Shown piece by piece: positions 43,403 to 54,988 of a stretch of DNA of 64,000 bases. The notes below the pieces were generated by a model that made no database searches, had not been told where the DNA came from, and saw nothing but the letters and a program-made list of their open reading frames with translations. Each line of letters begins with the position of its first letter. Position 1 is the first letter of the stretch. Source of the DNA: a virus. Where the stretch lies: the IMG/VR virus record IMGVR_UViG_3300042559_001588, positions 42,919 to 106,918 of that record; one strand, 5' to 3'. The position numbers and the translations under genes were made by a program.

Positions 43403-43876
43403 ATGCCAAAATGTTATCAACTGATCGGAGTGCCTGCATCGGGCAAAACCACTTGGTACCGTAACCAAGAGTGGTTGGGTGAAGATAAAAAAGATCACAA
43501 GTATGTGTCCACAGATCAGCATGTGGAAGGATATGCCAATGATCAAGGCAAAACCTACAGTGAAGTGTTTGAGGAATACATGCCCACTGCTGTCAAACAG
43601 ATGCTGATAAATGTTAACATGGCTGCGGCATATCAGTTAGATATTGTTTGGGATCAGACCAGCACCACAGTTAAAAGCCGTCGAAAGAAGTTTGTTGAGT
43701 TGCCCAACTATGAGCACATTGCTGTGGTATTTCGGACACCCGATGCACCGGAACATGCTCGCAGATTAAACAGTCGTCCGGGCAAGCACATTCCTGATGA
43801 AATAGTACAAGATATGATCATCAAATTTGAAATGCCTACCGAAGAAGAAGGGTTTGTTGAAATCTGGCATGTGTAA
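43403..43876 (+). CDS. P-loop kinase (polynucleotide kinase-like)
   Basis: YQLIGVPASGKTTWYRNQEW is the Walker A start; IVWDQTSTTVKSRRKKF is like the DxTxxxxxxR of T4 Pnk-type kinases; FRTPDAPEHARRLNSRPGKHIPDEIV the lid. 157 residues: kinase domain only, no phosphatase. Among tRNA genes, a role in RNA repair is plausible but inferred. Confidence 0.75.
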   Translation: MPKCYQLIGVPASGKTTWYRNQEWLGEDKKDHKYVSTDQHVEGYANDQGKTYSEVFEEYMPTAVKQMLINVNMAAAYQLDIVWDQTSTTVKSRRKKFVELPNYEHIAVVFRTPDAPEHARRLNSRPGKHIPDEIVQDMIIKFEMPTEEEGFVEIWHV

Positions 43877-43883
43877 TACTGGG

Positions 43884-44369
43884 TTAGGCTCTGGATAGCA
43901 TTACCAGGCTGAGAAAAAATGCCGGAATTGCAATGGCCACAAAACAAGAAAACACAAGAAATGTTTGTAATATGTCTTCTTGTGCTTTGCGATTGGCTGC
44001 TGCCATTTTTCTTTCAACTTCTGCTCGTTCTTTGTACATACGCACTCGCTCGGACTGCATTTGATCCCAGACATCTTTGTTGCCGGACCAGATCAGCATT
44101 TCTTTAAGTTCTTTTTCAGCGTCCCGCAGTGCTTTGCTGTGCATGGCAGTTTGCAAAGATCTTGAAGCAATTTCTCCATTGCTCAGCAAAGAAGTAGAAT
44201 TCATCAGCTTGACATTGGCCACATAAACTTTGTCGCAATTTTGAAAAAATGAACTAAACTGTCCGTATAAGCTGTTGATGTCTTTGCCCATGGCAATGGC
44301 TTTTTTAATGCCGCCAATTGCTTGCTGTGCCGCAGTGAATGCCAGGCCAATTGTCACAGGGTCAATCAT
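43884..44369 (-). CDS. Membrane-anchored phage protein, 161 aa
   Basis: MIDPVTIGLAFTAAQQAIGGIKKAIAMGKDIN, a charged helical middle (MQSERVRMYKERAEVERKM) and a C-terminal transmembrane helix (about 138-157, FLVFSCFVAIAIPAFFLSLV). Similar MIDP-starting proteins occur in T4-like environmental phages. Four-base overlap with the next minus-strand gene. Function unknown. Confidence 0.6.
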   Translation of the reverse strand: MIDPVTIGLAFTAAQQAIGGIKKAIAMGKDINSLYGQFSSFFQNCDKVYVANVKLMNSTSLLSNGEIASRSLQTAMHSKALRDAEKELKEMLIWSGNKDVWDQMQSERVRMYKERAEVERKMAAANRKAQEDILQTFLVFSCFVAIAIPAFFLSLVMLSRA

Positions 44370-44560
44370 GATCGTAGAATATAAGGTTTAAATTGCTTTT
44401 CCCAGCGTCGACACCAAACTTCTCTATTGGGAGCTTGGCCCGACCAACTCCACAGTGTACACACCCATTGTTCATTCTTGTCTAATTTTTCCGTTGGTGG
44501 TGCCACAGCATTTAATGCTGTAGAGCCTGCCAACAACACAAACAACAAAGAATATTTCAT
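44366..44560 (-). CDS. Small secreted/periplasmic protein, 64 aa
   Basis: Signal peptide MKYSLLFVLLAGSTALNAVA, then a Trp/Cys-rich mature part (WVCTLWSWSGQAPNREVWCRRWEKQF). Two cysteines could pair. Forms a minus-strand operon with the membrane protein; perhaps lysis or envelope related. Confidence 0.55.
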   Translation of the reverse strand: MKYSLLFVLLAGSTALNAVAPPTEKLDKNEQWVCTLWSWSGQAPNREVWCRRWEKQFKPYILRS

Positions 44561-44606
44561 TTACTATATTTAACTATAGTACGATATAATTACAACAGCC
44601 GTTTGA

Positions 44607-44635
44607 TTGACTGCAAAGCCACAATCTGCTATAAT
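44607..44635 (+). promoter_or_regulatory. Sigma-70 promoter for the phosphoesterase
   Basis: TTGACT, 17 bases, TATAAT; GGAGGG before the ATG at 44667. Confidence 0.78.
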
Positions 44636-44666
44636 ATAGGTTACAACGCAAGAAAAGGAGGGCAAG

Positions 44667-45269
44667 ATGCCTAGTGTATTTTTAGTCAGCGACACGCACT
44701 TTGGACACATGGGTGTATGCCGCTTTACCCGCAACGATGGTGTCACCAAATTACGCCCGTGGGATAGTGCTGAGGAAATGGACGAAGCCATGGTCACGGC
44801 CTGGAACAAACGAGTTAAACCCACGGACAAGGTATATCACTTGGGTGATGTGGTTATAAACCGCAAAGCATTAAAGACTCTGGCCAGATTGAACGGCGAC
44901 AAGGTGTTAATCCGTGGCAACCATGATATCTTCCGTGATGAAGAGTATCGTGAATACTTTCGTGAATTACGGGCGTACCATGTGATGAACGGCATGATCC
45001 TTAGCCACATTCCTGTACACAGTGACAGCTTGGGGCGTTTTGGCGTCAACATACACGGACATACTCACGCAAATCGTGTACGCAAAGCCCGTGGAGTTGA
45101 TGCTAGAACTGGTGAAATCTTGTACAGCGACGAGATTGATCCACGCTATCATTGTGTATGCGTGGAACAGACTGACTTTGCACCGATACTGTTTGAAGAT
45201 GTGATCAAACGCATCGAAGCAGAAGGTGGGTCAGTGGGTTTTCGTAACGGCAATGGTCCTACAATGTAG
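44667..45269 (+). CDS. Calcineurin-like metallophosphoesterase
   Basis: VFLVSDTHFGH (DxH), VYHLGDVV (GD), LIRGNHD (GNHD), LSHIP and NIHGHTH (GHxH) are all present. 200 residues. Family hydrolyses phosphoesters; substrate unknown. Own promoter, among tRNA genes. Confidence 0.88.
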   Translation: MPSVFLVSDTHFGHMGVCRFTRNDGVTKLRPWDSAEEMDEAMVTAWNKRVKPTDKVYHLGDVVINRKALKTLARLNGDKVLIRGNHDIFRDEEYREYFRELRAYHVMNGMILSHIPVHSDSLGRFGVNIHGHTHANRVRKARGVDARTGEILYSDEIDPRYHCVCVEQTDFAPILFEDVIKRIEAEGGSVGFRNGNGPTM

Positions 45270-45284
45270 GCCTGGAATTTTAAA

Positions 45285-45362
45285 GTAGCGGTGGCAGAGA
45301 GGCCCAATGCAAGGGATTGCAAATCCCTAAAACCGTGAGTTCGAATCTCACCCGCTACTCCA
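45285..45362 (+). tRNA. tRNA-Cys(GCA)
   Basis: Acceptor GTAGCGG/CCGCTAC, anticodon arm AGGGATTGCAAATCCCT, discriminator T, encoded CCA. Confidence 0.92.
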
Positions 45363-45480
45363 GTTAATTCACAGTTGAATTTTAAAGAGTAAATAGAGTA
45401 GTCAGAGTGCAGGCTCTTTTTAAATCCTGCCTTTGTGTGGTACCGAGCAATGCTCCTGCTTGTATAAGCATCGGTACACT
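45363..45480 (+). ncRNA. Structured spacer between tRNA-Cys and tRNA-Gly
   Basis: No ORF. Hairpins GCAGG/CCTGC around 45409-45430 and GTG(G)TACCGA/TCGGTACAC at about 45437-45479. Not a tRNA by any fold I can draw. Confidence 0.35.
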
Positions 45481-45483
45481 ATT

Positions 45484-45557
45484 GCGGGATTCGTAAAATG
45501 GTATTACCTTAGATTTCCAATCTAAAGTCGGGGGTTCGATTCCCCCATCCCGCTCCA
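45484..45557 (+). tRNA. tRNA-Gly(TCC)
   Basis: Acceptor GCGGGAT/ATCCCGC, anticodon arm TTAGATTTCCAATCTAA, encoded CCA. Confidence 0.93.
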
Positions 45558-45586
45558 GTTTTTATGTTGATCGATTTGAGAAAATT

Positions 45587-46087
45587 ATGCAAACCATTAA
45601 TCTTGTAAAAGTAAAACAATTCATAGAAGCACAAGGCCCAATGACTCGCATCTATTTGGGTTGCGACAGCGAACGAATCCGAATCAACAACGAATGGTGG
45701 GCCGATTACACACTGGCCATTGTGGTGCATATCAACGGCAACAGCGGATGCAAGATATTTGGCGAAGTGTGCCGCGAGCGTGACTATGATCAAAAAACTG
45801 CACGGCCCAGCATGCGACTGATGAACGAAGTGTACAAAGTTTCTGACATGTATCATCGGCTGGGCGAAGTGCTGAACGGCCGAGAAGTGGAAGTACACTT
45901 GGACATCAATCCAGACGAACGCCACGGATCCAGCTGTGTGATTGCACAGGCCATTGGCTATATAAAAGGAACCTGCAACATAACACCATTGGTCAAACCC
46001 GAAGCGTTTGCTGCCAGTTATGCTGCGGATCGCTTCAAAGGATTGGCCACTGCACGACATCGTGTTCGAGTCAATGAACGAGTTTAG
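45587..46087 (+). CDS. RNase H-like (DUF458/YkuK-type) protein, 166 aa
   Basis: RIYLGCDSERIRINNEWWADYTLAIVVH opens with an Asp as in RNase H folds; VEVHLDINPDERHGSSCVIAQAIGYIKG and VKPEAFAASYAADRF match the YkuK/DUF458 family. Nuclease activity inferred from fold. Its TAG stop shares a base with the following tRNA. Confidence 0.7.
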   Translation: MQTINLVKVKQFIEAQGPMTRIYLGCDSERIRINNEWWADYTLAIVVHINGNSGCKIFGEVCRERDYDQKTARPSMRLMNEVYKVSDMYHRLGEVLNGREVEVHLDINPDERHGSSCVIAQAIGYIKGTCNITPLVKPEAFAASYAADRFKGLATARHRVRVNERV

Positions 46088-46180: not shown

Positions 46181-46207
46181 AAAAGGCTACTTTGATAGCC
46201 TTTTTTC
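46181..46207 (+). terminator. Intrinsic terminator
   Basis: AAAAAGGCTA/TAGCCTTTTTT hairpin with U-run. Confidence 0.85.
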
Positions 46208-46236
46208 TTGACTTTTAAACAAAAGGCATATATAAT
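46208..46236 (+). promoter_or_regulatory. Sigma-70 promoter for a small RNA
   Basis: TTGACT, 17 bases, TATAAT, immediately after the terminator. Confidence 0.75.
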
Positions 46237-46242
46237 ACACTA

Positions 46243-46388
46243 TGATTACGCAAATCACATTCACTGCTAACAACACGCCGGCCATCTATGAGATAGCCTA
46301 TGAGCGTGATTGTCCCAGGGGTCTTTGCCATTGTAGTTAACAAAAGTACTACATTCACAAAGACCCGCTAACTAGGCGGGTTTTTTTA
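46243..46388 (+). ncRNA. Small structured RNA with own promoter and terminator
   Basis: About 145 bases. GGGTCTTTG pairs with CAAAGACCC around an inner TGTAGT/ACTACA stem; the terminator follows. A 32-codon ORF starts at 46242 at the predicted transcript start, without a ribosome site, so an RNA role seems likelier. Confidence 0.45.
46364..46387 (+). terminator. Intrinsic terminator
   Basis: CCCGC/GCGGG hairpin followed by seven T. Confidence 0.85.
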
Positions 46389-46397
46389 TGGCGCTGG

Positions 46398-46426
46398 TAG
46401 ACACAAAATCGCATCAGTGCTATAAT
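46398..46426 (+). promoter_or_regulatory. Promoter of the main tRNA/RNA operon
   Basis: TAGACA, 17 bases, TATAAT. Confidence 0.65.
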
Positions 46427-46439
46427 ACACACATAACAG

Positions 46440-46460
46440 CAGCAAACGATCGAGTAGCTG
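46440..46460 (+). promoter_or_regulatory. 5' leader hairpin with loop AAACGATCGAGTA (copy 2)
   Basis: CAGC/GCTG stem; loop identical to copy 1 at 42617. Located at the predicted transcript start. Confidence 0.55.
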
Positions 46461-46492
46461 AAGAGAATTCTTTAAAAATTTACTAATATTTT

Positions 46493-46512
46493 TTCTTGCT
46501 ACGGCAAGAAAT
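46493..46512 (+). other. Perfect 8-bp hairpin before RNA island unit 1
   Basis: TTTCTTGC-TACG-GCAAGAAA; preceded by a T-rich run. Could stabilise or end a leader transcript. Confidence 0.4.
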
Positions 46513-46644
46513 TATATTGAAACACATTTTCAATCTGAATTGACAGATACAAACAACCAAGGGGAGCCGCTGGACTTGAGCCAGGTTCATCCTGAATTGA
46601 CAGGAACAAGGTTGTAAGGGGAGCCGAGTGCGTTTCAATATAAT
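46511..46644 (+). ncRNA. Stem-closed RNA unit 1, with internal tandem repeat
   Basis: Ends pair over 15 of 16 positions (ATTATATTGAAACACA with TGCGTTTCAATATAAT). Inside are two copies of CTGAATTGACAG-xx-ACAA...AGGGGAGCCG. Seven bases later a tRNA-Glu starts. Confidence 0.55.
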
Positions 46645-46650
46645 AAATTT

Positions 46651-46725
46651 GGAGCATTCGTCTATCGGTTAGGACAGTGGGTTTTCAGTCCACTAAGAGC
46701 GGTTCGACTCCGCTATGCTCTACCA
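46651..46725 (+). tRNA. tRNA-Glu(TTC)
   Basis: Acceptor GGAGCAT/ATGCTCT (G1-T72), anticodon arm GTGGG-TTTTCAG-TCCAC, encoded CCA. Confidence 0.88.
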
Positions 46726-46732
46726 TGTTTTT

Positions 46733-46819
46733 GGATGTGTAGGAAAATTGGTAACCCCAGGAGACTGTAAATCTTCCGTCGTAATGGCATTGTTGGTTCA
46801 AGTCCAACCTCATCCACCA
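46733..46819 (+). tRNA. tRNA-Tyr(GTA)
   Basis: Class II; loop CTGTAAA, T-arm TTGG-TTCAAGT-CCAA, encoded CCA. One mismatch (T6-T67) in the acceptor stem. Confidence 0.85.
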
Positions 46820-47053
46820 AATATTTCTCGTCAGAGCCCTAATGCAAATCCTGTGGGCGATGAATTAACAAGGCTGCATAGATGCTTGCAGTATATTGTC
46901 GGTGAAGTTCCGACCGGGAAACGAAATCAAGTGGAAAGCAAGAGCCACAAAGTAAACACCGCCGGGTCAGAAAATGTGTCCGGGACGTATGGGTCGCGCA
47001 GCCTATACAAACAACGGTGGGGTAAGAGTCCTCATAACATTTTCACAAATTTA
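46820..47053 (+). ncRNA. Ornate RNA spacer between tRNA-Tyr and tRNA-Asp
   Basis: 234 bases without a convincing ORF. Several hairpins: GCCC/GGGC, CTGCA/TGCAG, GTCGG/CCGAC, GTGG/CCAC, CACCG/CGGTG enclosing CCGG/CCGG. Too structured to be plain spacer. Confidence 0.45.
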
Positions 47054-47128
47054 GGTGCGTTCATATAACGGTCATTATCCTGGATTGTCTATCCAGAGAC
47101 GGGAGTTCGACTCTCCCACGCATCGCCA
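47054..47128 (+). tRNA. tRNA-Asp(GTC)
   Basis: Acceptor GGTGCGT/ACGCATC, anticodon arm CTGGA-TTGTCTA-TCCAG, encoded CCA. Confidence 0.92.
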
Positions 47129-47135
47129 AGTTAAC

Positions 47136-47213
47136 AGGCCCTTAGCTCATGTTGGTTAGAGCAGCAGACTCATAATCTGTTGGTGCTGTGTTCGACTCAC
47201 AGAGGGCCTACCA
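47136..47213 (+). tRNA. tRNA-Met(CAT), elongator type
   Basis: Acceptor AGGCCCT/AGGGCCT, anticodon arm GCAGA-CTCATAA-TCTGT, encoded CCA. Could in principle be an Ile tRNA with modified CAT. Confidence 0.88.
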
Positions 47214-47395
47214 AGTTTTGGTTAGTTGGAAATGAAAGTAACCCAAAGGGAGCGCTCTGAACAGGCGCTGCTTAGTACGCCTTACAAAAGTAATTGTCCT
47301 GACTGTTCGACCCAAGAGGTGTTTACCCGTAGATTAAGTTCCTACGCTCTCGCTCAAGGGATGTCGCTGTGTCGCAACAGCACTAACCACCAAGT
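47214..47395 (+). ncRNA. Stem-closed RNA unit between tRNA-Met and a tRNA-like element
   Basis: GGTTAGT (47220) pairs with ACTAACC (47382). Interior holds GCGC-rich and GTTCGACCCAA segments. Followed at 47397-47449 by another hairpin (TAAGAG/CTCTTA with inner TTGTA/TACAA). Confidence 0.4.
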
Positions 47396-47457
47396 TTAAG
47401 AGTTCGTCTAGAAACCGGTAAATTGTAGTTTGGTCTACAAGCTCTTAATTAGTTTAT

Positions 47458-47550
47458 GGTGTCATAGGATGTAACGGGGTGCGGTTTGCCTCAACCTTGA
47501 ATGATCATCAAGGTTTTCTTGCGTGGGTTCGAATCCCACATGATGCCCCA
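47458..47550 (+). tRNA. tRNA-like element with His-type end and no clear anticodon
   Basis: Clear T-arm GTGGG-TTCGAAT-CCCAC and acceptor GTGTCAT/ATGATGC with G(-1) facing C73, then CCA, as in tRNA-His. Between them the D region is too long and the only strong hairpin is an 8-bp stem AACCTTGA/TCAAGGTT with loop ATGATCA. Degenerate or altered tRNA. Confidence 0.45.
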
Positions 47551-47621
47551 AATTTGCAGTTTTTGTCTGGAGTAATATTCCTGGACACGGATAAAAACAG
47601 AAATGTTCTGCGCCAAGTTAT

Positions 47622-47691
47622 GCCCTGGACTGTGTTGCGAGTCAGATTTGAAGCTGAACGTAGACAGGTTTAATTCCTGTTAGGGGCGCCA
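47622..47691 (+). tRNA. Degenerate tRNA-like element
   Basis: Acceptor GCCCTGG/TAGGGGC with a mismatch, T-arm ACAGG-TTTAATT-CCTGT, D-arm ACT/AGT and an 8-base anticodon-like loop ATTTGAAG; CCA encoded. Amino acid cannot be assigned. Preceded (47556-47612) by a long hairpin GCAGTTTTTGTC.../...AAAAACAG..CTGC. Confidence 0.4.
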
Positions 47692-47694
47692 AGT

Positions 47695-47918
47695 TTTGTT
47701 AGAGTGTTAGCAAGAGAAAGTCACGCTGTCTAGGTTTCTTCGAAGGACCAAAACAGTAGAAGGTTGCGGGTTCGATGCCCGGCTGATCGCTTGAGTGGGA
47801 TCGGCATACATGACGGCGTATCAACTGGACCGGTATCCCAAGTAACTTACCGACTCCCGCTCGAGCTTGTTAATTCGGGTGAATGGCAGCAATAACGTGG
47901 TGCTGCTACTCTAACAAA
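47695..47918 (+). ncRNA. Stem-closed RNA unit 2 (ornate, 224 bases)
   Basis: Ends form a perfect 11-bp helix TTTGTTAGAGT/ACTCTAACAAA. Inside: a T-arm-like hairpin CGGG-TTCGATG-CCCG, a long stem TTG..GGGAT/ATCCCAA and CCCG/CGGG. Lies three bases after one tRNA-like element and nine before another. Confidence 0.55.
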
Positions 47919-47926
47919 TTCAATAT

Positions 47927-48016
47927 GCCAGCGAGACTTGGAGTCCGAGGGGTCTTATATGCCCTTTCCGCCAGATTAGCGGCTTTGAGAGAGTTCGATT
48001 CTCTCCGCTGGTACCA
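47927..48016 (+). tRNA. Class II tRNA with anticodon TAT (identity unclear)
   Basis: Acceptor GCCAGCG/CGCTGGT (G1-T72), T-arm GAGAG-TTCGATT-CTCTC, encoded CCA. Best anticodon arm GGGGT-CTTATAT-GCCCT reads TAT (Ile AUA), but a variable arm CCGC/GCGG is present, as in Leu/Ser/Tyr tRNAs. The D-arm is short. Confidence 0.55.
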
Positions 48017-48024
48017 GATCGTGT

Positions 48025-48052
48025 TGGATAAACTTTTTATCAGTTTATCCAA
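48025..48052 (+). terminator. Strong hairpin, possible terminator
   Basis: GGATAAACT/AGTTTATCC 9-bp stem with T-rich loop; no U-run, but a new promoter follows at once. Confidence 0.45.
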
Positions 48053-48058
48053 AACAAT

Positions 48059-48087
48059 TTGACAAGCAAAGATGTTTGTCATACAAT
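48059..48087 (+). promoter_or_regulatory. Sigma-70 promoter
   Basis: TTGACA, 17 bases, TACAAT, in front of RNA unit 3. Confidence 0.75.
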
Positions 48088-48100
48088 AGATACTTACTTG

Positions 48101-48206
48101 ATATTGTTGAGCACATTAGCCTGACTGAAACGGGCATCGAGTACGTGGGGCGTGAAAGAAGGTTCGATTCCTTCATACTCAATTTCAGTGGTGTGTTCAA
48201 CAATAT
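48101..48206 (+). ncRNA. Stem-closed RNA unit 3 with T-arm-like hairpin
   Basis: 15-bp closing helix ATATTGTTGAGCACA/TGTGTTCAACAATAT. Inside, CTGAAA/TTTCAG, then GAGTA/TACTC around GAAGG-TTCGATT-CCTTC, so the core looks like a mini acceptor-plus-T-arm. Confidence 0.6.
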
Positions 48207-48227
48207 AAAGTTTGGTAAAATTAGGTG

Positions 48228-48256
48228 TTGACAAGTTCAACAGTTGATGTTACAAT
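48228..48256 (+). promoter_or_regulatory. Sigma-70 promoter of the large ornate RNA
   Basis: TTGACA, 17 bases, TACAAT. Confidence 0.75.
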
Positions 48257-48262
48257 AAGATT

Positions 48263-49150
48263 CCGGGGCAGTTTAATGTCCTACTAGGCAGCTTGCTGTC
48301 TAGTGAAGAATAACTGTGGTGACACAGCCAAAGGAGGTATGCCTACATAACTCCGCCAGCAACGGTTCGTTTAGACAAGCCTGCTCAGACTCGCGAGAGT
48401 CCCTTCACTGATAAGACCGGTGGAGGTAACAATGACGCTGGATGTTGTGGAAAGAACGTCGGCTTACCGGCCCGCAAGGGTAACCGGAGCAGATGGAAAG
48501 TAACAGGTGGTGCTGACTTCACAACAAAACCAGTCCAGTTAATTGGCATGAGAAAGGGTAGTGTATCGGTCCGAGGGGTTGCACCCAAGGGCTTGTATGC
48601 AGTTTGAGTGGTCAGTGGAGGCTGTCGAAAGGCGGGGTCAACACAGATCGCAAAAGACGTCTGAGTAGTTCGCAAGACAAAAGGAACGTGGTGTGTTGTA
48701 TTGTGTAGAGCAAAACTTTATGCAGCAACTGAGTCAGCACATCGCAGTAGGTTCGTTATAGCTCAATTGGTAGAGCAACTCCCTGTTAAGGAGTAGGCAG
48801 ACGGTTCAAATCCATCTAACTATTAAAAAGCAAAGACTGACTCGGTCGTATGTGAAAAGCATCTAATACTTGGCTCGCAAGAGAATCAAGTCAGACGTAA
48901 CTCGCAAGGTGAAATCTGTTTATGCAGGAAGTTTCGTAACTGTTTAGCGACAGTGAATGGCTCTAAAGGTCAACGGGATAGAAAGCGTAGAATAGCATAT
49001 GGCGACAAGACTACTGCCTGTCTTTAAAAACGGCGATGCTGGCAACAGACCAGGAAACCTGCAAGGGTCTTGGTGGAAGTCGGAAGAAAGCGGTCTCGCA
49101 AGGATCGTAATAATGTCCGAGGTGTTGTTGGGTAAGCATGTATTCTCAGT
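48263..49150 (+). ncRNA. Large ornate non-coding RNA (about 0.9 kb) with embedded tRNA-like domain
   Basis: No credible ORF. Many compact hairpins with GNRA-type loops: CTGTG-GTGA-CACAG, GACTC-GCGA-GAGTC, CCC-GCAA-GGG, CTC-GCAA-GAG, ACTC-GCAA-GGT; plus a 10-bp hairpin ACTAGGCAGC/GCTGTCTAGT near the start. A stem ACTGAGTCAG/CTGACTCGGT (about 48726/48829) lifts out a tRNA-Asn-like domain. Own promoter. Resembles GOLLD/ROOL-type large phage RNAs in size, style and tRNA setting; 3' end is estimated. Confidence 0.6.
48754..48826 (+). tRNA. tRNA-Asn(GTT)-like domain inside the large RNA
   Basis: Good D-arm (GCTC/GAGC) and anticodon arm ACTCC-CTGTTAA-GGAGT; T-arm GACGG-TTCAAAT-CCATC with one mismatch. 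Acceptor poorly paired, no CCA. A normal tRNA-Asn is at 51234, so this is probably a structural domain rather than a working tRNA. Confidence 0.5.
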
Positions 49151-49156
49151 GCTCCA

Positions 49157-49219
49157 CTATTCTAAAACACATTAAGCTGATGCGGGCTGCAATGCCGCAG
49201 ATAGTGTGTTTCAGAATAG
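49157..49219 (+). ncRNA. Stem-closed RNA unit 4 (minimal, 63 bases)
   Basis: CTATTCTAAAACACA pairs with TGTGTTTCAGAATAG (14 of 15); inside only one hairpin TGCGG/CCGCA. Smallest member of the family; sits 13 bases before the initiator tRNA. Confidence 0.6.
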
Positions 49220-49232
49220 ATAAATAAACTAC

Positions 49233-49308
49233 CGCGGGAAGGGTCCGGTCACCGGCAGGGTCTCATAAGCCTTCGCAATCCTTGGTTCAAATCCAAGTCC
49301 CGCTACCA
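49233..49308 (+). tRNA. Initiator tRNA-fMet(CAT)
   Basis: C1 faces T72 unpaired (CGCGGGA/TCCCGCT), loop CTCATAA, T-loop TTCAAAT and CCA: the mismatch at 1-72 and T-loop are initiator features. The anticodon stem keeps two of the three G-C pairs usual in initiators. Confidence 0.8.
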
Positions 49309-49326
49309 ATAACAAATCATCGGTGG

Positions 49327-49355
49327 TTGACACAGAATGATAAATAACATACAAT
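49327..49355 (+). promoter_or_regulatory. Sigma-70 promoter
   Basis: TTGACA, 17 bases, TACAAT, ahead of the ncRNA at 49362. Confidence 0.75.
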
Positions 49356-49361
49356 AGGATT

Positions 49362-49548
49362 TATGATGAACACTAATATTTTTAGCCCCATGCATCGCGT
49401 AACGACCCAGGCTCAGCCGTGGTCACGCGGTTTTGGCCGTGTCAAGAATATTACAGCGAATCACAGGGTCCGAGAAGAAAGCAGTTGCGCATAACAGCAG
49501 TAACCGACAAACTTCAAGGACCCTGGATTAAAAACCCAGGGTTTTTTT
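49362..49548 (+). ncRNA. Non-coding RNA candidate sharing its 3' module with 42345-42508
   Basis: Promoter upstream, terminator at the end, no good ORF. GACCCAGG.. and CGTGGTCACG-type hairpins inside. The last 45 bases repeat the ACAAACTTCAAGGACCCTGG module. Confidence 0.5.
49521..49548 (+). terminator. Intrinsic terminator
   Basis: CCCTGG(G)/CCCAGGG hairpin with seven T. Confidence 0.85.
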
Positions 49549-49564
49549 ATTTTAGCAAGGAACA

Positions 49565-49735
49565 ATGACAGATAAAAAGATTAAGCAAGCAGAGTGGACG
49601 GCAACGCATACACTGACTAAAGAACAGTTCAAGCAATTGATCCGTAAAAAGGTCGAACGTGCCGCACAGCATCACCGAGCAGCAAAACAGCGAGAGACTG
49701 CCCAAGGGCCGTCGCAGATCGCAAAGTGTGAATAA
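49565..49735 (+). CDS. Small basic helical protein, 56 aa
   Basis: ATG at 49565 with AAGGA upstream. TLTKEQFKQLIRKKVERAAQHHRAAKQRE is a charged helix. Possibly an RNA- or DNA-binding peptide. Placed among RNA genes. Not recognised. Confidence 0.5.
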   Translation: MTDKKIKQAEWTATHTLTKEQFKQLIRKKVERAAQHHRAAKQRETAQGPSQIAKCE

Positions 49736-49840
49736 GAGCAGCAATGCCCAGGAAACGAGGTCCTGACAACGCACTTAAAACAAGTTGTAAACGGGCGGCC
49801 TGTGGGATGAAACTCCTTTTGTGGAGCGAAAAATCACAGC

Positions 49841-49908
49841 GTATTAAAGCACACTTCCGACAGCAGGCGGAGGTGACAAGGTCCATTCGGGTGAGTGTGC
49901 TTTAATAC
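49841..49908 (+). ncRNA. Stem-closed RNA unit 5
   Basis: Perfect 15-bp helix GTATTAAAGCACACT/AGTGTGCTTTAATAC closing a 38-base interior. The 105 bases before it are non-coding and hold shorter hairpins (ACTCC/GGAGC type). Confidence 0.6.
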
Positions 49909-49949
49909 ACACATTGGCAACAGTGTGTTAGAAAATACGGGCAATCAGA

Positions 49950-50660
49950 TCAGGTCTTTTTGCCCACATCAATCAACAGAAGTCTTCTGGTCCAATATCC
50001 TGTATTTGCTGATGCATGCATGGTGTCTCGGGCATTCCAAGTGAACACGTCTCCGGCTGACCATGTTATGTTACACATGTCAAATTGAAACATTTGTCCC
50101 GGTTGCTGATCTTCTAAAAAAATTAGAAATCTATCATGTGATGGATCCGACACAAGTTGTTTTTCGTCAGCATGATAGTCATTGTGCCGAACTCGGTCCA
50201 GATGCAAAGGAAATATTTGACCAGGTTTTTGTATGTTTAATTTTGCTCGACTGACGGCCAGGTGAGCCGGATCTAGCCCAATGGCATTCAAAAATTCAGA
50301 GACAACAAATTTTAGAATTGGGTCTTGTAATTTTACTTCCATGTGAGAATTTTTTGTTAGTAATTCGTCAAACTCGGAATCGTACACCCATTGTCTCAGT
50401 GTCTCCGGTGGTATGTTGTCTACATTGAATGTTTTTGGATTTTCGGCCATCAGTTCAAAATATTTACTGTTGACCGAAAACGCCTGGAAGGCATCATCAT
50501 TGTTGTATGTAATTTTTGACAGTGCCTTTAGACTTTTTGCCATTGAGTTTTTGACATTGCATATCGGCAACACTGAAGTCAATGGTTGATATTCCGGGTG
50601 TCTTTGATGAACAAGTTGGTGTAAGAAAAAGTTTTTCATGTCACCAGTACTTATTGGCAA
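49950..50660 (-). CDS. 2-oxoglutarate/Fe(II) oxygenase-like (cupin fold) protein
   Basis: 236 residues; the start could also be Met-7 (50642), MKNFFLHQ. FPLHLDRVRHNDYHAD supplies a possible HxD and WSAGDVFTWNARDTMHASANTGYWTRRLLLID the distal His and Arg of the double-stranded beta helix. Similar to Asp/Asn-hydroxylase-like phage proteins. Only minus-strand gene within the RNA island. Confidence 0.55.
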   Translation of the reverse strand: MPISTGDMKNFFLHQLVHQRHPEYQPLTSVLPICNVKNSMAKSLKALSKITYNNDDAFQAFSVNSKYFELMAENPKTFNVDNIPPETLRQWVYDSEFDELLTKNSHMEVKLQDPILKFVVSEFLNAIGLDPAHLAVSRAKLNIQKPGQIFPLHLDRVRHNDYHADEKQLVSDPSHDRFLIFLEDQQPGQMFQFDMCNITWSAGDVFTWNARDTMHASANTGYWTRRLLLIDVGKKT

Positions 50661-50681
50661 TTTGTATTGAATTTTTAAAAT

Positions 50682-50757
50682 GTATCGCTAGCTCAACTGG
50701 CAGAGTTCTGGTCTCCAAAACCAGCGGTTCGGGGTTCGAATCCCTGGCGGTACGCCA
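50682..50757 (+). tRNA. tRNA-Trp(CCA)
   Basis: Acceptor GTATCGC/GCGGTAC, anticodon arm CTGGT-CTCCAAA-ACCAG, encoded CCA. Confidence 0.93.
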
Positions 50758-50762
50758 AACAT

Positions 50763-50839
50763 CGGTCCTTAACTCAATCGAATAGAGTGCCAGTCTTCGA
50801 AACTGGAAGTTGGGAGTTTGAATCTCTCAGGGCCGGCCA
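50763..50839 (+). tRNA. tRNA-Arg(TCG)
   Basis: Acceptor CGGTCCT/AGGGCCG, arm CCAGT-CTTCGAA-ACTGG, T-loop TTTGAAT, encoded CCA. Confidence 0.9.
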
Positions 50840-50845
50840 AAAAAC

Positions 50846-50921
50846 GGGGGATTAGCTCATTTGGGAGAGCGGCTGCTTTGCAAGCAGTAGGTAATCAGTT
50901 CGATCCTGATATCCTCCACCA
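50846..50921 (+). tRNA. tRNA-Ala(TGC)
   Basis: Acceptor GGGGGAT/ATCCTCC with G3-T70, the Ala identity pair; loop TTTGCAA; encoded CCA. Confidence 0.93.
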
Positions 50922-50928
50922 AATTTAT

Positions 50929-51002
50929 TGGGGGTTAGTGTAGCGGCAACACTACAGACTTTGACTCTGTCATCACTGGTTCGATCCCAGTACCCTCTGC
51001 CA
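50929..51002 (+). tRNA. tRNA-Gln(TTG)
   Basis: Loop CTTTGAC, acceptor TGGGGGT/ACCCTCT with an open 1-72 pair as is common for Gln, encoded CCA. Confidence 0.88.
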
Positions 51003-51009
51003 AAATAAT

Positions 51010-51086
51010 GCCTCCATAGCTCAGTTGGTTAGAGCATTCGCTTGATAAGCGAAAGGTCCGTGATTCGAGTTCACGTGGCGGCACCA
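51010..51086 (+). tRNA. tRNA-Ile(GAT)
   Basis: Arm TTCGC-TTGATAA-GCGAA; acceptor GCCTCCA/TGGCGGC with one mismatch; encoded CCA. Confidence 0.9.
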
Positions 51087-51094
51087 AATATATG

Positions 51095-51123
51095 TTGACA
51101 CTGTTGGTCAACTGCTATATAAT
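51095..51123 (+). promoter_or_regulatory. Sigma-70 promoter for tRNA-Ser(GCT) onward
   Basis: TTGACA, 17 bases, TATAAT. Confidence 0.8.
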
Positions 51124-51132
51124 AGAGATAAC

Positions 51133-51224
51133 GGAGAGTTGGCCGAGTGGTCGAAGGCAGCAGGTTGCTAACCTGTCGGGTCAAGTAATTGGCTCCAAGA
51201 GTTCGAATCTCTTATTCTCCACCA
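51133..51224 (+). tRNA. tRNA-Ser(GCT)
   Basis: Class II; arm CAGGT-TGCTAACCTG with anticodon GCT, acceptor GGAGAGT/ATTCTCC, encoded CCA. Confidence 0.92.
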
Positions 51225-51233
51225 ATGGTTTAT

Positions 51234-51309
51234 TCCTCAGTAGCACAGCGGTAGTTGCGCTTCACTGTTAATGAAGATGTCGTACGTTCGATCCGTACCT
51301 GAGGAGCCA
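51234..51309 (+). tRNA. tRNA-Asn(GTT)
   Basis: Acceptor TCCTCAG/CTGAGGA, arm CTTCA-CTGTTAA-TGAAG, encoded CCA. Confidence 0.92.
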
Positions 51310-51316
51310 ATTTTTA

Positions 51317-51390
51317 GCCCTACTAGTACAATGGCAGTACACTGGTTTTGTAATCCTGTGATGGCAGTTCGATTCTGTCGTGGGGCACCA
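51317..51390 (+). tRNA. tRNA-Thr(TGT)
   Basis: Acceptor GCCCTAC/GTGGGGC, D-stem GTAC/GTAC, loop TTTGTAA. The anticodon stem CTGGT/TCCTG has two T-T mismatches, odd for the only Thr tRNA present. Encoded CCA. Confidence 0.82.
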
Positions 51391-51398
51391 TCTTTTTA

Positions 51399-51469
51399 TC
51401 CCGGTTGTAGTGTAATGGTAACACAGGTCCGTATACAACCAATGAAGGTTCGATTCCTTCCTCCGGGGC
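51399..51469 (+). tRNA. Degenerate tRNA-like element without CCA
   Basis: Acceptor TCCCGGT/TCCGGGG, D-arm GTGT/ACAC, T-arm GAAGG-TTCGATT-CCTTC. About four bases are missing in the anticodon region (GGT-CCGTATACA-ACC), so no identity can be given. Probably a decaying tRNA. Confidence 0.5.
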
Positions 51470-51477
51470 TACTCAAT

Positions 51478-51555
51478 GCGTCTTTAGCTCAGCTGGATCA
51501 GAGCACTGGTTTACGAAGCCGGGGGCCGGGAGTTCGAGTCTCTCAGGACGCACCA
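51478..51555 (+). tRNA. tRNA-Arg(ACG)
   Basis: Acceptor GCGTCTT/AGGACGC, loop TTACGAA; encoded CCA. Expected to carry inosine at position 34. Confidence 0.9.
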
Positions 51556-51562
51556 AAAACAG

Positions 51563-51591
51563 TTGACAACATTCTGCAATTGTTGTATAAT
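51563..51591 (+). promoter_or_regulatory. Sigma-70 promoter before tRNA-Lys
   Basis: TTGACA, 17 bases, TATAAT. Confidence 0.75.
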
Positions 51592-51629
51592 CAAAACTTA
51601 AACGAAAGACTATATGAAGCGAACAGCTA

Positions 51630-51690
51630 AAATGTAGTGTCAACCCAGATCCCATGTCGGTCTGGATTGGCACTCGAAAGACAATTCACG
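51630..51690 (+). ncRNA. Hairpin leader upstream of tRNA-Lys
   Basis: GTGTCAACCCAGA and TCTGGATTGGCAC pair at 12 of 13 positions. Lies between the promoter and tRNA-Lys. Confidence 0.4.
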
Positions 51691-51699
51691 ACTGAGTAT

Positions 51700-51775
51700 G
51701 GGATCATAGTGAAATGGTTATCACAGCAGACTTTTAATCTGCCAATTCCCGGTTCGAGTCCGGGTGGTCCTACCA
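51700..51775 (+). tRNA. tRNA-Lys(TTT)
   Basis: Arm GCAGA-CTTTTAA-TCTGC, acceptor GGGATCA/TGGTCCT, encoded CCA, which also begins the closing helix of RNA unit 6. Confidence 0.9.
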
Positions 51776-51873
51776 TATAAAAACACATTAGAAAACATAG
51801 GCAGACCTATGGGGTCCTGAGCAGAAACTCAGGAGCGTAGTTTATTGTAAAACAATAGTGTGTTTCTATATGG
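51773..51873 (+). ncRNA. Stem-closed RNA unit 6
   Basis: CCATATAAAAACACATTA pairs with TAGTGTGTTTCTATATGG over 17 of 18 positions. Inside: hairpins CATAGG/CCTATG and TCCTGAG/CTCAGGA. The 5' strand includes the CCA of tRNA-Lys. Confidence 0.65.
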
Positions 51874-51924
51874 TAAAACTATTTGAGTTCAATGGTCACA
51901 CGCCCTTGCTTGAATTAGAAGTTG

Positions 51925-52050
51925 CCATAGTTGAATACATTCATCATTGGTTGACCCGACAGTCTGCTTGGTTAGCAGGGCGGACGCAACGAAGTAGCTT
52001 AACTAGCACGATGAAAAAGCCCTTTACGCCGAGAGTGTATTCAACTATGG
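51925..52050 (+). ncRNA. Stem-closed RNA unit 7
   Basis: Perfect 15-bp helix CCATAGTTGAATACA/TGTATTCAACTATGG. Interior about 95 bases with CTGC/GCAG-type hairpins. The next 109 bases hold ACTAG/CTAGT and GTCGC/GCGAC hairpins. Confidence 0.6.
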
Positions 52051-52159
52051 TCAGTATTGGTAGATCCCGGACCAACTAGGTTGCTAGTCACAACACATAG
52101 GGGATGGGCAATCGCCAAGAAGTCGCAAGAGCAGGCTTGACCGCCAGAGGGTAGCGACG

Positions 52160-52272
52160 CCATATAAGAACACATTCAACGGTTAGTGGATACCTAGCAA
52201 CTGGACGCAGGTGCTATCCCAAAGAGCAGGCATGCCGCCGTAAAGCTAGGAAACGAATGTGTTCTTATATGG
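52160..52272 (+). ncRNA. Stem-closed RNA unit 8
   Basis: Perfect 18-bp helix CCATATAAGAACACATTC/GAATGTGTTCTTATATGG. The arm sequence nearly equals those of units 6 and 9; the interior is unrelated. Confidence 0.68.
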
Positions 52273-52278
52273 TCAGAT

Positions 52279-52403
52279 CATATAAAAACACACTAGCATA
52301 GAGTGACGAGCCCGTTTAGCGGCGGGTGTTATGGGTTGCTCGAATGCCATCCTCGGGCGAGGAGCTAGCAAGGCGGTTCGACTCCGTAGTGTGTTTCTAT
52401 ATG
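52279..52403 (+). ncRNA. Stem-closed RNA unit 9, ending on the first base of tRNA-His
   Basis: CATATAAAAACACACTA pairs with TAGTGTGTTTCTATATG (16 of 17). A T-arm-like GGCGG-TTCGACT-CCG lies near the 3' end. The 3' arm ends at 52403, the G(-1) of tRNA-His. Confidence 0.65.
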
Positions 52404-52479
52404 GTGTAGTTAGTGTCAGCGGTCAGCACTACGGATTGTGATTCCGTCAGCATGGATTCGAATTCCATACTATACCCCA
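52403..52479 (+). tRNA. tRNA-His(GTG)
   Basis: G(-1) faces C73, acceptor GTGTAGT/ACTATAC, arm ACGGA-TTGTGAT-TCCGT, CCA encoded. Confidence 0.9.
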
Positions 52480-52489
52480 CAGCAGTTCT

Positions 52490-52564
52490 GGAAGTATAGC
52501 ACAGCGGTAGTGCAGCAGCTTCATACGCTGCGGGTCAGTAGTTCGAATCTACTTACTTCCACCA
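52490..52564 (+). tRNA. tRNA-Met/Ile2(CAT)
   Basis: Acceptor GGAAGTA/TACTTCC, arm GCAGC-TTCATAC-GCTGC, CCA encoded. With a Met and an fMet elsewhere, this may be the lysidine-type Ile(CAT). Confidence 0.85.
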
Positions 52565-52975: not shown

Positions 52976-53049
52976 CTCAGTATGGTGAAATGGTATCACT
53001 CTTGGTTTGGGACCAAGGAGCGTAGGTTCGATTCCTGCTACTGAGACCA
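52976..53049 (+). tRNA. tRNA-Pro(TGG)
   Basis: Acceptor CTCAGTA/TACTGAG, arm CTTGG-TTTGGGA-CCAAG, CCA encoded. Confidence 0.93.
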
Positions 53050-53074
53050 AATATAAAATAAATAAAAGTTAAGA

Positions 53075-53398
53075 CTGTATGAAGTAGACAGAAAAGGATT
53101 CAAGACGTGGGTTCGACTCCCACCATCTCCACCTAAGTGTATGAGGTATATTTAGGTGGGGATGACCAGGCTATCGATTGGGTCACAAGTAAAGAAATGG
53201 ACAGTCCGGCAATGTAGAAGCCGTTAGGGTCGGAGTATTTCGGCCGTAGACACAAAAACCGTAAATGCAAACGCAAATACAGGTGAAGTAACTGTTTCAG
53301 GTAAGAACGTCAAGTTCTCTGCTCGTACAGCACAACGCCACTCCTTAGCAGTCTAAACACTGCTTTGAGCAACTATGCTTAGAAACAGAAAATAGTAA
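53075..53398 (+). ncRNA. ssrA: Circularly permuted (two-piece) tmRNA
   Basis: The 3' acceptor piece comes first: T-arm GTGGG-TTCGACT-CCCAC (53107-53123), then CATCTCC-A-CC (53124-53133). A 24-base spacer follows, then the 5' piece GGGGATG (53158). GGGGATG/CATCTCC form a 7-bp acceptor with G3-T70, the alanine identity pair; the spacer extends it (ACCTAA/TTAGGT). A tag frame opens with GCA AAC at 53267 and stops TAA at 53354 in a CAGT/ACTG hairpin. Final A of CCA is not encoded. Permuted ssrA is known from beta- and alphaproteobacteria and cyanobacteria; rescues stalled ribosomes. The 5' end is estimated. Confidence 0.85.
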
Positions 53399-53400
53399 AT

Positions 53401-53424
53401 AGGACCTTCGGGTCCTATTTTTTT
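53401..53424 (+). terminator. Intrinsic terminator of the tmRNA
   Basis: AGGACC-TTCG-GGTCCT with seven T. Confidence 0.9.
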
Positions 53425-53452
53425 GACTTATTTGTAATGCGGCATATATAAT
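53423..53452 (+). promoter_or_regulatory. Sigma-70 promoter for the Ala/Lys-rich protein
   Basis: TTGACT, 18 bases, TATAAT, directly at the tmRNA terminator. Confidence 0.65.
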
Positions 53453-53801: not shown

Positions 53802-53928
53802 GGGTGTCTGCCGGTCAATTTAGCCAGAAAACCAGTGTAAACTGCTTGTTTTCTAAGTTGTTGCAGTGACCACCAATAAATACTTGAGTGGCAATTCTGC
53901 CCGTTCATACTTACAAAGGAAATACACA

Positions 53929-54768
53929 ATGAAAAAAGCATTAGTCGCAGTGGCAATTTTGGCTGCATTAGGTACAGCTCACGCCCAGTTCAAAATTGGC
54001 GGAAAACTTGCATACGACATCAAGCGGGCCGACAACTCATCGACCACCATGTCCCCAATGGACACCAGCAACATCAACTTCACTGCTACGGAATCCATCG
54101 GCAATGGCATCACTGTCAAGGCCTATGCAGAAATTCAACCTGGTGGAAACGGCACTGCCACCGAAGGCAACGACCTGTATATTGATGTTGCAACTCGTGT
54201 TGGTTCAGTCAAGGTCGGTCAAGTTGAATCCGCCAATGGTATCATTGGTCTAGGCCTAGGCGATGCACCAGTTATGGGCCAAGACGGAGTCGTATTGGGC
54301 GCCAAATCCAATGTGCAATCCGTCAGCTATACAACACCCACAGTGTCGGGAATTGCATTCAAAGTCAGCAACACTCGAGCCATCAACAACACCGGCACAA
54401 ACAAAAACTCATTTGGTGCAACTTACACAGTTGGCCCAATCAGCAGTGCTGTTGACTACAACCAAACTACCGAGCGTGTTCGTGCCAGCGCCAAAGCCAC
54501 TGTAAAAGGCATCACAGTTGGTGCGGGTGTCAGCCGCAATGAACTCAATGTTGCCGACTCCTATGTGGTAGGTGCTTCCTACACCATGGGTGCTGTGACT
54601 GTGGGTGCTGCATATTCCGACGGCAATGGCACTGCCAAAGAAGTTGGTGCTGAGTATGCATTGAGCAAGAGAACTTCGGTTCAATTGGCAGTGGCACAAG
54701 TTAACAGCAATACAACTGCTGCCAACAACACTGACACATATCGTGTTCGTGTATCACACTCGTTCTAA
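53929..54768 (+). CDS. Gram-negative (Burkholderiales-type) porin
   Basis: ATG at 53929 with AAAGGAA; an upstream in-frame start is unlikely. Signal peptide MKKALVAVAILAALGTAHA, then QFKIGGKLAYDIKR; alternating beta strands (VKAYAEIQPGG, VGSVKVGQVES, SVSYTTPTVSGIAFKVS) and final aromatic YRVRVSHSF, the outer-membrane insertion signal. 279 residues, shorter than typical porins (330-380). An AATAAATA box lies at 53875-53882. Could replace a host receptor or alter permeability during infection. Confidence 0.85.
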   Translation: MKKALVAVAILAALGTAHAQFKIGGKLAYDIKRADNSSTTMSPMDTSNINFTATESIGNGITVKAYAEIQPGGNGTATEGNDLYIDVATRVGSVKVGQVESANGIIGLGLGDAPVMGQDGVVLGAKSNVQSVSYTTPTVSGIAFKVSNTRAINNTGTNKNSFGATYTVGPISSAVDYNQTTERVRASAKATVKGITVGAGVSRNELNVADSYVVGASYTMGAVTVGAAYSDGNGTAKEVGAEYALSKRTSVQLAVAQVNSNTTAANNTDTYRVRVSHSF

Positions 54769-54786
54769 TCCAACACGATTGGACAC

Positions 54787-54814
54787 AAAGGCTACTTCGG
54801 TAGCCTTTTTTTTT
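54787..54814 (+). terminator. Intrinsic terminator after the porin
   Basis: AAAGGCTAC-TTCG-GTAGCCTTT with T-run. Confidence 0.92.
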
Positions 54815-54834
54815 GGCCGTTTGTGTGCAGTCGA

Positions 54835-54842
54835 TATAAATA
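54835..54842 (+). promoter_or_regulatory. T4-type late promoter box TATAAATA
   Basis: Exact match to the T4 late-promoter core, between the porin terminator and the PP-loop gene. A sigma-70 promoter follows downstream. Confidence 0.45.
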
Positions 54843-54890
54843 ACATCAGCAACGCCAACAATCTGTTGACGTCGGATCACCAATTGACGC

Positions 54891-54920
54891 TTGACATAGC
54901 AATGTCTTTACTGTTATAAT
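54891..54920 (+). promoter_or_regulatory. Sigma-70 promoter for the PP-loop/Tct operon
   Basis: TTGACA, 18 bases, TATAAT. Confidence 0.7.
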
Positions 54921-54988
54921 ATAACAGAACGCCTACCGTAAGTAGAGTTCTTCTACAAGCAATCTCCCTGAATACAGTAAAACTGCCA

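Follow-up and report, generated by a model that had tools for sequence, protein, structure and literature searches.

The window, a stretch of 64,000 nt of viral DNA (IMG/VR record IMGVR_UViG_3300042559_001588), carries tRNA genes, a GOLLD RNA and eight stem-closed units, hereafter called cassettes (Table 1). The array also encodes an RNase H-like protein (PF04308), a P-loop kinase-like protein and a metallophosphatase. Promoter-like boxes (TTGACA/TACAAT), judged by eye, lie immediately 5' of cassette 2. A window-wide scan for closing helices of such size found 13, eight of which were the seven units and the related element at 51925-52050 described in the first-pass annotation; their positions held, except that three frame ends were off by 1-2 bases. 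The tRNA contacts described there also stood, the CCA of tRNA-Lys (51773-51775) being columns 1-3 of its unit and G(-1) of tRNA-His being position 52403. The region 46200-52500 contained nine closing helices, eight of them with the core, whereas 200 dinucleotide shuffles of the same region gave a mean of 0.175 helices (maximum 2) and never produced the core, which rules out a chance origin. When set in an 18-column register, all eight frames left 0 or 1 out of 18 positions unpaired. In most cases, the plan of the frame was CCA, 7 nt and RCACAYT, paired with ARTGTGY, 7 nt and UGG, giving a helix of about 17-18 bp around an interior (cargo) of mostly 27-100 nt.

Table 1. Cassettes and adjoining RNA genes in the window (R1, alignment model described in the text).
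Feature	Position	Strand	Interior	Remarks
Cassette 1	46512..46643	+	96 nt	between tRNA-Ser(act) and tRNA-Glu(ttc); 17/18 columns paired
Cassette 2	48101..48206	+	70 nt, with T-arm-like hairpin	18/18 columns paired; R1 23.2 bits
GOLLD RNA	48688..49152	+		adjoins cassette 3 upstream; 197.4 bits vs cut-off 150
Cassette 3	49157..49219	+	27 nt	begins 5 nt past last GOLLD model base
Cassette 4	49839..49910	+	36 nt	
tRNA-Lys(ttt)	51700..51775	+		commonest upstream dock
Cassette 5	51773..51873	+	65 nt	columns 1-3 = CCA of tRNA-Lys(ttt); R1 55.8 bits
Cassette 6	51925..52050	+	90 nt	variant core ATACATT/AGTGTAT; 18/18 columns paired
Cassette 7	52160..52272	+	77 nt	R1 43.3 bits
Cassette 8	52278..52404	+	91 nt	column 79 = G(-1) of tRNA-His; R1 47.7 bits
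tRNA-His(gtg)	52404..52479	+		adjoins cassette 8 downstream; start called by ARAGORN

When the region 46200-52500 was compared with Rfam 15, no family covered any unit even at E 10, the sole overlap in that scan being a chance-level minus-strand match that touches the start of the first unit. At gathering thresholds, the whole window gave only GOLLD, a permuted tmRNA and tRNAs, and in 13 relative loci (including L002, a copy of the window), eight of which had been chosen for holding a unit of the GOLLD-following type, tRNA, GOLLD, tmRNA and one group I intron were among the matches listed. A known Rfam family was therefore rejected as the identity of the units, and with it the "skipping-rope" motif, an initial lead.

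The identical frame plan was found in at least 264 distinct units from at least 200 sources; the carriers are a group of large uncultured phages, with the units lying between tRNA genes. In this collection, which was made without the copies L001 and L002, rows were retained only if the nearest tRNA was on the same strand and no more than 1500 nt away, that tRNA also fixing the orientation, and the resulting 316 rows collapsed to the 264 units. Since at least 120 stretches had been retrieved by one 5' arm sequence, the tests of spacing and covariation rest on the loci fetched by protein. Model R1, aligned from 54 of 66 listed units and the window unit 49157-49219, scored cassette 1 at 29.0 bits on the plus strand as compared with 21.2 on the minus strand, and cassettes 3 and 4, themselves rows of the alignment, at 58.5 and 49.4 bits; cassette 6 was missed at E 1. 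R1 gave no match in the six cultured phages Phosso, MD18, Atu_ph07, Vibrio phage 2.275.O, CBB and PBECO4 under stricter filters that lose weak matches, and a strict two-arm pattern returned 0 stretches from the genome collection. Blast searches of the units against phage records found nothing convincing: seven records at E 2 or worse in one search, one record (25 bases, E 0.1) in a further one and none in another. Among the open-access papers that literature searches listed, none described such units in its title or the opening of its abstract.

Because the core motif is nearly identical on both strands, the strand needed a separate proof. The wobble position of the frame was U.G, U-A or C-G in all 316 sense-oriented rows (U.G in 219) and never C.A, which shows that the frame functions as tRNA-strand RNA; an A.C mismatch was present in 164 of 315 rows. 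Both sides had changed in 12 of the 18 arm pairs. The arms were 95.2% paired in register, a value inflated for the R1 rows, since these came from a helix scan, as compared with 31-56% when slid. Among 43 units picked blind to the outer helix, 42 paired at eight or more of 10 positions, and their pairing sum was 395 against a mean of 351.7 and a maximum of 368 in 2000 shuffles. Divergent matches to the cargo sat in a paired frame in 91 of 94 cases, and in 20 of the 23 lacking the standard core; the partner-shuffle control for this set is weak, the arms being alike, with 63/94 still reaching 12 pairs as compared with 0.3/94 for random partners. The check for covariation was thus positive, and the earlier proposal that the structure is selected is borne out by the compensatory arm changes, the blind-picked units and the framing of divergent cargo. 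Taken together, these comparisons of sequence establish that the frame is maintained as tRNA-strand RNA, with its pairing held by compensatory change.

The frame also keeps a fixed distance from the tRNA. Of 1396 tRNA contexts, 44 had the core starting exactly 8 nt past the tRNA end, any other offset occurring at most twice; for tRNA-Lys(ttt) contexts from the protein-fetched loci and the window, the figure was 29 of 49. Of 159 units preceded by a tRNA at no more than 60 nt, 151 had the same offset, a count that includes loci fetched by the arm pattern. This fixed offset indicates that, in units abutting a tRNA, the CCA forms the base of the helix. Spacing on the 3' side was looser (9 or 10 nt in 72/132, and in 25 of 73 core matches of the protein-fetched set), and 107 of the 264 units were without a tRNA close upstream.

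We found that cargo and dock vary separately. In pairs with similar flanks, the cargo was unrelated in 22 of 38; in 138 pairs with the same cargo, the outer arm differed in 43 and the cargo lay behind different tRNAs in 22. The same cargo occurred at 75-100% identity in different docks, and a column profile placed the change-over within the arms, the pairs behind these counts and the profile not being independent. For instance, a different cassette replaces cassette 1 in locus L003, with flanks 94-97% identical, and an interior resembling the cassette 1 cargo is held in other arms in L194. Near-identical copies of the cassette 4 cargo occur with different arms in L121 and L115, and the cargo family of cassette 7 recurs in L026, L095 and others. 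These alignments demonstrate, as far as sequence can, that cargo and dock have been exchanged, the switch falling within the arms. They agree with the first-pass suggestion of a scaffold for variable RNA cargo, in that unrelated cargo lies between matching flanks and one cargo lies in differing arms and behind different tRNAs. The suggestion of a mobile RNA element stood in part: the cargo moves between docks, but the flanks compared gave no sign of a self-moving element. In tests of cargo families, which covered clusters of at least three members at 55-93% identity and in which some alignments were poor, 13 of 20 had a z below -2 and 16 of 20 contained a compensated pair. The folding of single cargos barely exceeded that of shuffles (mean z -0.41; 9/144 below -2). 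In one cargo family, the loop varies but is always palindromic, and could be read as a kissing loop.

We favor, at a probability of roughly 0.55, the reading that the units are tRNA-docked processing hairpins that would be cut in an RNase III-like manner and release swappable small RNAs. In this reading, a group of large phages carries the units on its tRNA transcripts as RNA cassettes that can replace one another. The helix would be cut near its base by a nuclease specific for double strands, most probably RNase III of the host; this may free the upstream tRNA near its CCA, help, together with RNase P, to form the 5' end of the tRNA that follows, and set the cargo free as a small stem-closed RNA. 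The cargo may then work in trans, conceivably as a decoy for host defences or an inhibitor of them, and could be exchanged via recombination between the shared arms. As in RNase III processing stems, the helix flanks a mature RNA and is kept by pairing. The RNase III-type site proposed in the first pass fits the exact tRNA contact, but an RNase III domain was found in 0/3 and 0/8 phage records of relatives, some of which are fragments; a phage-coded enzyme was thus rejected as far as searched, and the enzyme would have to come from the host. For E. coli RNase III, 17-18 bp is a short helix. Against RNase III-like cutting, a 2-nt stagger cannot simultaneously leave an exact CCA and give the following tRNA its exact 5' end, and against a pure double-strand nuclease, the core letters are conserved more strongly than needed. 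The looser 3' spacing, the weak folding of single cargos and the units without a close upstream tRNA also count against this reading. More tentatively, tRNA transcripts might serve as a platform for exchangeable small RNAs, in which a standard frame on tRNA (perhaps also GOLLD) ends matures and stabilises any insert, recombination through the frame spreads the cargo, and the cargo is counter-defence RNA.

The strong conservation of the core, together with the recurring U.G wobble (219/316) and A.C mismatch (164/315), would also suit a frame that has no cut site and either binds a phage or host protein or holds tRNA and cassette as one chimeric RNA. The three proteins encoded in the array are in line with such a binding site. 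We think this explanation unlikely, as another paired sequence can stand in for the core (20/23), and as a paired CCA would make the tRNA useless, which would be odd for so many tRNA-Lys genes. The helix could instead be a mere processing spacer between tRNAs, its interior an idle loop turning over for lack of function, as the unrelated interiors in the same dock and the near-shuffle folding of single interiors would allow. The persistence of one cargo at 75-100% identity in different docks, the compensatory changes within cargo families and the loop that varies yet is always palindromic make this a poor prospect. Conserved ends, a variable middle and the same cargo at different places would also be expected if the arms were terminal inverted repeats of small mobile DNA elements. 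We regard this as highly improbable and rejected it as the main reading: the lack of strand preference in arm mismatches that it predicts was not observed, the fixed difference between left and right arms suiting RNA pairing on the tRNA strand (316/316), and compensatory arm changes and exact contact with tRNA ends also speak against it.

Among known systems, the tRNA cluster of phage T4 codes for stable RNAs of unknown role (species 1 and 2). The cassettes resemble these in being small RNAs cotranscribed, here by prediction, with phage tRNAs; we know of no common frame or exchangeable cargo in species 1 and 2. Integron attC sites flank exchangeable cargo with conserved imperfect inverted arms whose core is RYYYAAC/GTTRRRY. 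The cassettes share this arrangement, but selection acts on the RNA of one strand and the cargo seems to be non-coding; compared by eye, their core RCACAYT/ARTGTGY did not match the attC consensus. In the RNase III stems of pre-rRNA and T7 R1.1, as described in a review (PMC8708148), a long helix joins the RNA ends and marks the release from the precursor. The cassette helix likewise brings both ends together; it differs in recurring with unrelated cargo, in its fixed distance from the tRNA end and in its common core, and its cleavage is a prediction. GOLLD and ROOL are phage RNAs near tRNA islands that form homo-oligomers, according to a published report (PMC12286853). The cassettes too lie near tRNA genes, one GOLLD directly preceding cassette 3, but they are much smaller and fall outside every Rfam model. 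The conserved 3' domain of the GOLLD model was absent from the units in 46200-52500, where the single GOLLD match stops before cassette 3.

The cassettes look like a new modular RNA system, in which a constant helix carries cargo that is exchanged between one phage and another. What phage tRNA arrays are known to contain is tRNAs and a handful of giant RNAs whose role is unknown. A shared frame with more than 100 unrelated small RNAs inside would give access to a large reservoir of phage non-coding RNA still to be explored, would let such RNAs be recognised by sequence, and would provide a natural template for producing an RNA of choice from a tRNA transcript. It would also link a second type of payload in the same transcripts to the question of why large tRNA arrays are retained by phages.

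All eight closing helices described in the first-pass annotation were present as it had stated, each with at most one unpaired position over the 18 paired columns of the frame, in comparison with a mean of 0.175 helices, none with the core (RCACAYT on the 5' arm, ARTGTGY on the 3' arm), in shuffled sequence. They lie within a virus record of 106,918 bases, in an array (42.7-53.4 kb) that comprises a GOLLD RNA, a permuted tmRNA and, according to ARAGORN, 30 tRNA genes. The 340-kb contig behind L002, the copy of the window locus, carries this array too, and its anchor protein is identical. Among annotated phage records, the best matches of the DNA polymerase were Sinorhizobium phage Phosso (49.3%) and Agrobacterium phage Atu_ph07 (46.3%).

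Features observed in and beside the tRNA array of the window
Feature	Position	Observation
P-loop kinase-like, metallophosphatase and RNase H-like protein genes	43403-46087	Inside the array; may together serve RNA repair or processing
tRNA-like stretches	47457-47551, 47600-48016	Not called by ARAGORN; T-arm and CCA-like ends; one has an 8-bp anticodon-like stem (by eye)
GOLLD match	48688-49152	
tRNA-Asn	48751-48825	Within the GOLLD match
Linker, ~50 nt	51874-51924	Separates cassettes 5 and 6 and ends in CCA; resembles a stretch lying between two units of relative locus L150 (by eye)
Permuted tmRNA	53042-53447	Unusual tag peptide; similar tmRNAs in relatives, that of locus L015 also matching a betaproteobacterial tmRNA family (a hint of the host)
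Gram-negative porin-like and TctA transporter-like proteins	53866-57447	Next to the array; uncommon as phage cargo

Relatives were retrieved through the array-encoded RNase H-like protein (PF04308; 80 loci) and through one arm sequence (at least 120 stretches). Scanning the window together with 199 loci yielded 316 sense rows, corresponding to 264 distinct units. Units were present in 47 of 80 loci when the 79 protein-fetched loci, many of them incomplete, were taken together with the window. A whole-record search with a covariance model, made from an alignment of 55 units, found units in 9 of 15 records, among them the record that holds the window and a copy of that record, and, with stricter filters applied to these, in none of six cultured phages. 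All six places in the 340-kb record fell within 104.8-110.7 kb, which is its tRNA array.

In the 55-unit alignment, which includes window unit 49157-49219 and whose rows were picked by a helix scan, double changes occurred at 12 of the 18 pairs (120 cells, 32 further pair types), a level of covariation matched by none of 500 shuffles; pairing fell from 95% to 31-56% when the partner was slid. A selection made without the outer helix took every CCA-ending tRNA with a core at +8 (44 distinct) and then the next 3' core (43). At the ten outer positions, at least eight were paired in 42 of these 43 units, across 16 combinations of arm sequences, and 395 of 430 outer-arm pairs were formed, versus a mean of 351.7 and a maximum of 368 after partner shuffling. 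When units were searched by cargo (the interior) only, at least 12 of 14 frame pairs were formed in 91 of 94 divergent matches; with random partners the number was 0.3, and shuffling partners among the matches left it at 63. Even without the standard core, 20 of 23 such matches were paired (e.g., ACAGATT/AGTCTGT and GCTCTTT/AGAGAGC); the other three look like wrongly placed cargo ends. Taken together, these sequence comparisons indicate that the frame structure is under selection, as the first-pass annotation had proposed.

The frame often sits on a dock, the end of the flanking tRNA or perhaps GOLLD RNA. The window and the protein-fetched loci supplied 1396 distinct tRNA contexts. In 44 of them, the core started exactly 8 nt past the tRNA end, columns 1-3 being the tRNA CCA; no other offset occurred more than twice. 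These 44 followed tRNA-Lys(UUU) (29 of 49 contexts), tRNA-Thr(UGU) (6/52), tRNA-Glu (3/47), tRNA-Arg(ACG) (3/44), tRNA-Ser(UGA) (1/19), tRNA-Ser(GGA) (1/2) and tRNA-Ile(GAU) (1/47). Among all units, the spacing held in 151 of 159 with an upstream tRNA within 60 nt; 107 had no nearby upstream tRNA. The 3' side was looser, with the next tRNA 9 or 10 nt past the core in 72 of 132 units; in the protein-fetched set, this held for 25 of the 73 core matches that precede a tRNA. The 10-nt spacing was mainly that of tRNA-His, whose called start lies one base past G(-1). In the window, a unit follows the last GOLLD model base by 5 nt. Of eight relative loci chosen for having the GOLLD-following type of unit, three carried GOLLD, each match stopping a few nt upstream of the unit, and five had none at the gathering score. 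The tRNA-Asn inside the window's GOLLD match resembles the tRNAs that PMC12286853 reports in GOLLD linkers.

Interiors fell into 139 clusters, 94 of them singletons. For 38 unit pairs with both flanks similar, the cargo was unrelated in 22, the same in 14 and between these in two; among 138 same-cargo pairs, the outer arm differed in 43 and the preceding tRNA in 22. When the same cargo stood on unlike docks (93 pairs, 105 units), columns 18 and 63 were common in 89% and 95%, versus backgrounds of 29% and 38%, and columns 1-2 were at mere background. With the same dock and unlike cargo (17 pairs, 22 units), columns 1-5 were fully identical and columns 18 and 63 were at background (24% and 35%). 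The shift was gradual, column 7 giving 80% versus 47% in same-cargo pairs. Since inner columns go with the cargo and outer ones with the dock, this profile indicates that cargo and dock are separate, with the change-over within the arms. Between the window and relative locus L003, a cassette and ~110 preceding bases are replaced between flanks 94-97% identical.

The frame motif is nearly symmetric between strands. In the orientation of the nearest tRNA, column 16 was U·G in 219, U-A in 49, C-G in 48 and C·A in none of 316 rows; on the opposite strand, C·A occurred in 168 of 263. At a second position, A·C was found in 164 of 315 sense rows. In the window, the covariance model scored plus above minus for all six units matched on both strands and matched a seventh on plus alone, two of the seven being rows of its own alignment; it did not detect 51925-52050. 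The base pairs show that the frame acts as RNA of the tRNA strand.

Folding of single cargos gave stabilities hardly above those of shuffles (mean z -0.41; below -2 in 9 of 144). Among 20 aligned cargo families, RNAalifold z was below -2 in 13, and at least one compensated pair was present in 16. The T-arm-like GGTTCR occurred in 21 of 144 cargos, versus 3.3 in shuffles (maximum 9). One family (relative loci L059, L063, L066, L069, L074, L076, L211 and L212), with four of six units behind tRNA-Thr(UGU), had a loop in which a perfect 6-nt palindrome occupied the same position in all eight distinct sequences, six different palindromes being represented. As this emerged from a scan across every cluster, it should be discounted somewhat for the search. 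The 8-nt palindromic loops of this family gave mean duplex energies of -10 kcal/mol with themselves and -2 with one another. A palindrome that varies between phages yet is always kept is as expected of a self-pairing kissing loop, and points to pairing between two like molecules.

The base of the helix falls on mature tRNA ends, and the arms still pair where core letters differ, which meets the needs of a double-strand nuclease. An RNase III domain was found in none of eight related records, which makes the host's RNase III the simplest candidate for cleaving the frame helix. Its 2-nt stagger could not make both tRNA ends exact, so trimming or RNase P would have to assist. The main alternative to cleavage is a protein-binding role of the frame. 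From the diversity and turnover of the cargo, we would guess that it serves as decoys or inhibitors.

No Rfam family covered a unit, even at an E value of 10, and searches of open-access papers turned up no apparent description of such units. Every single part of the system has a known analogue; to present knowledge, a system in which a standard RNA frame docks on tRNA ends and carries exchangeable non-coding cargo is of a new kind.
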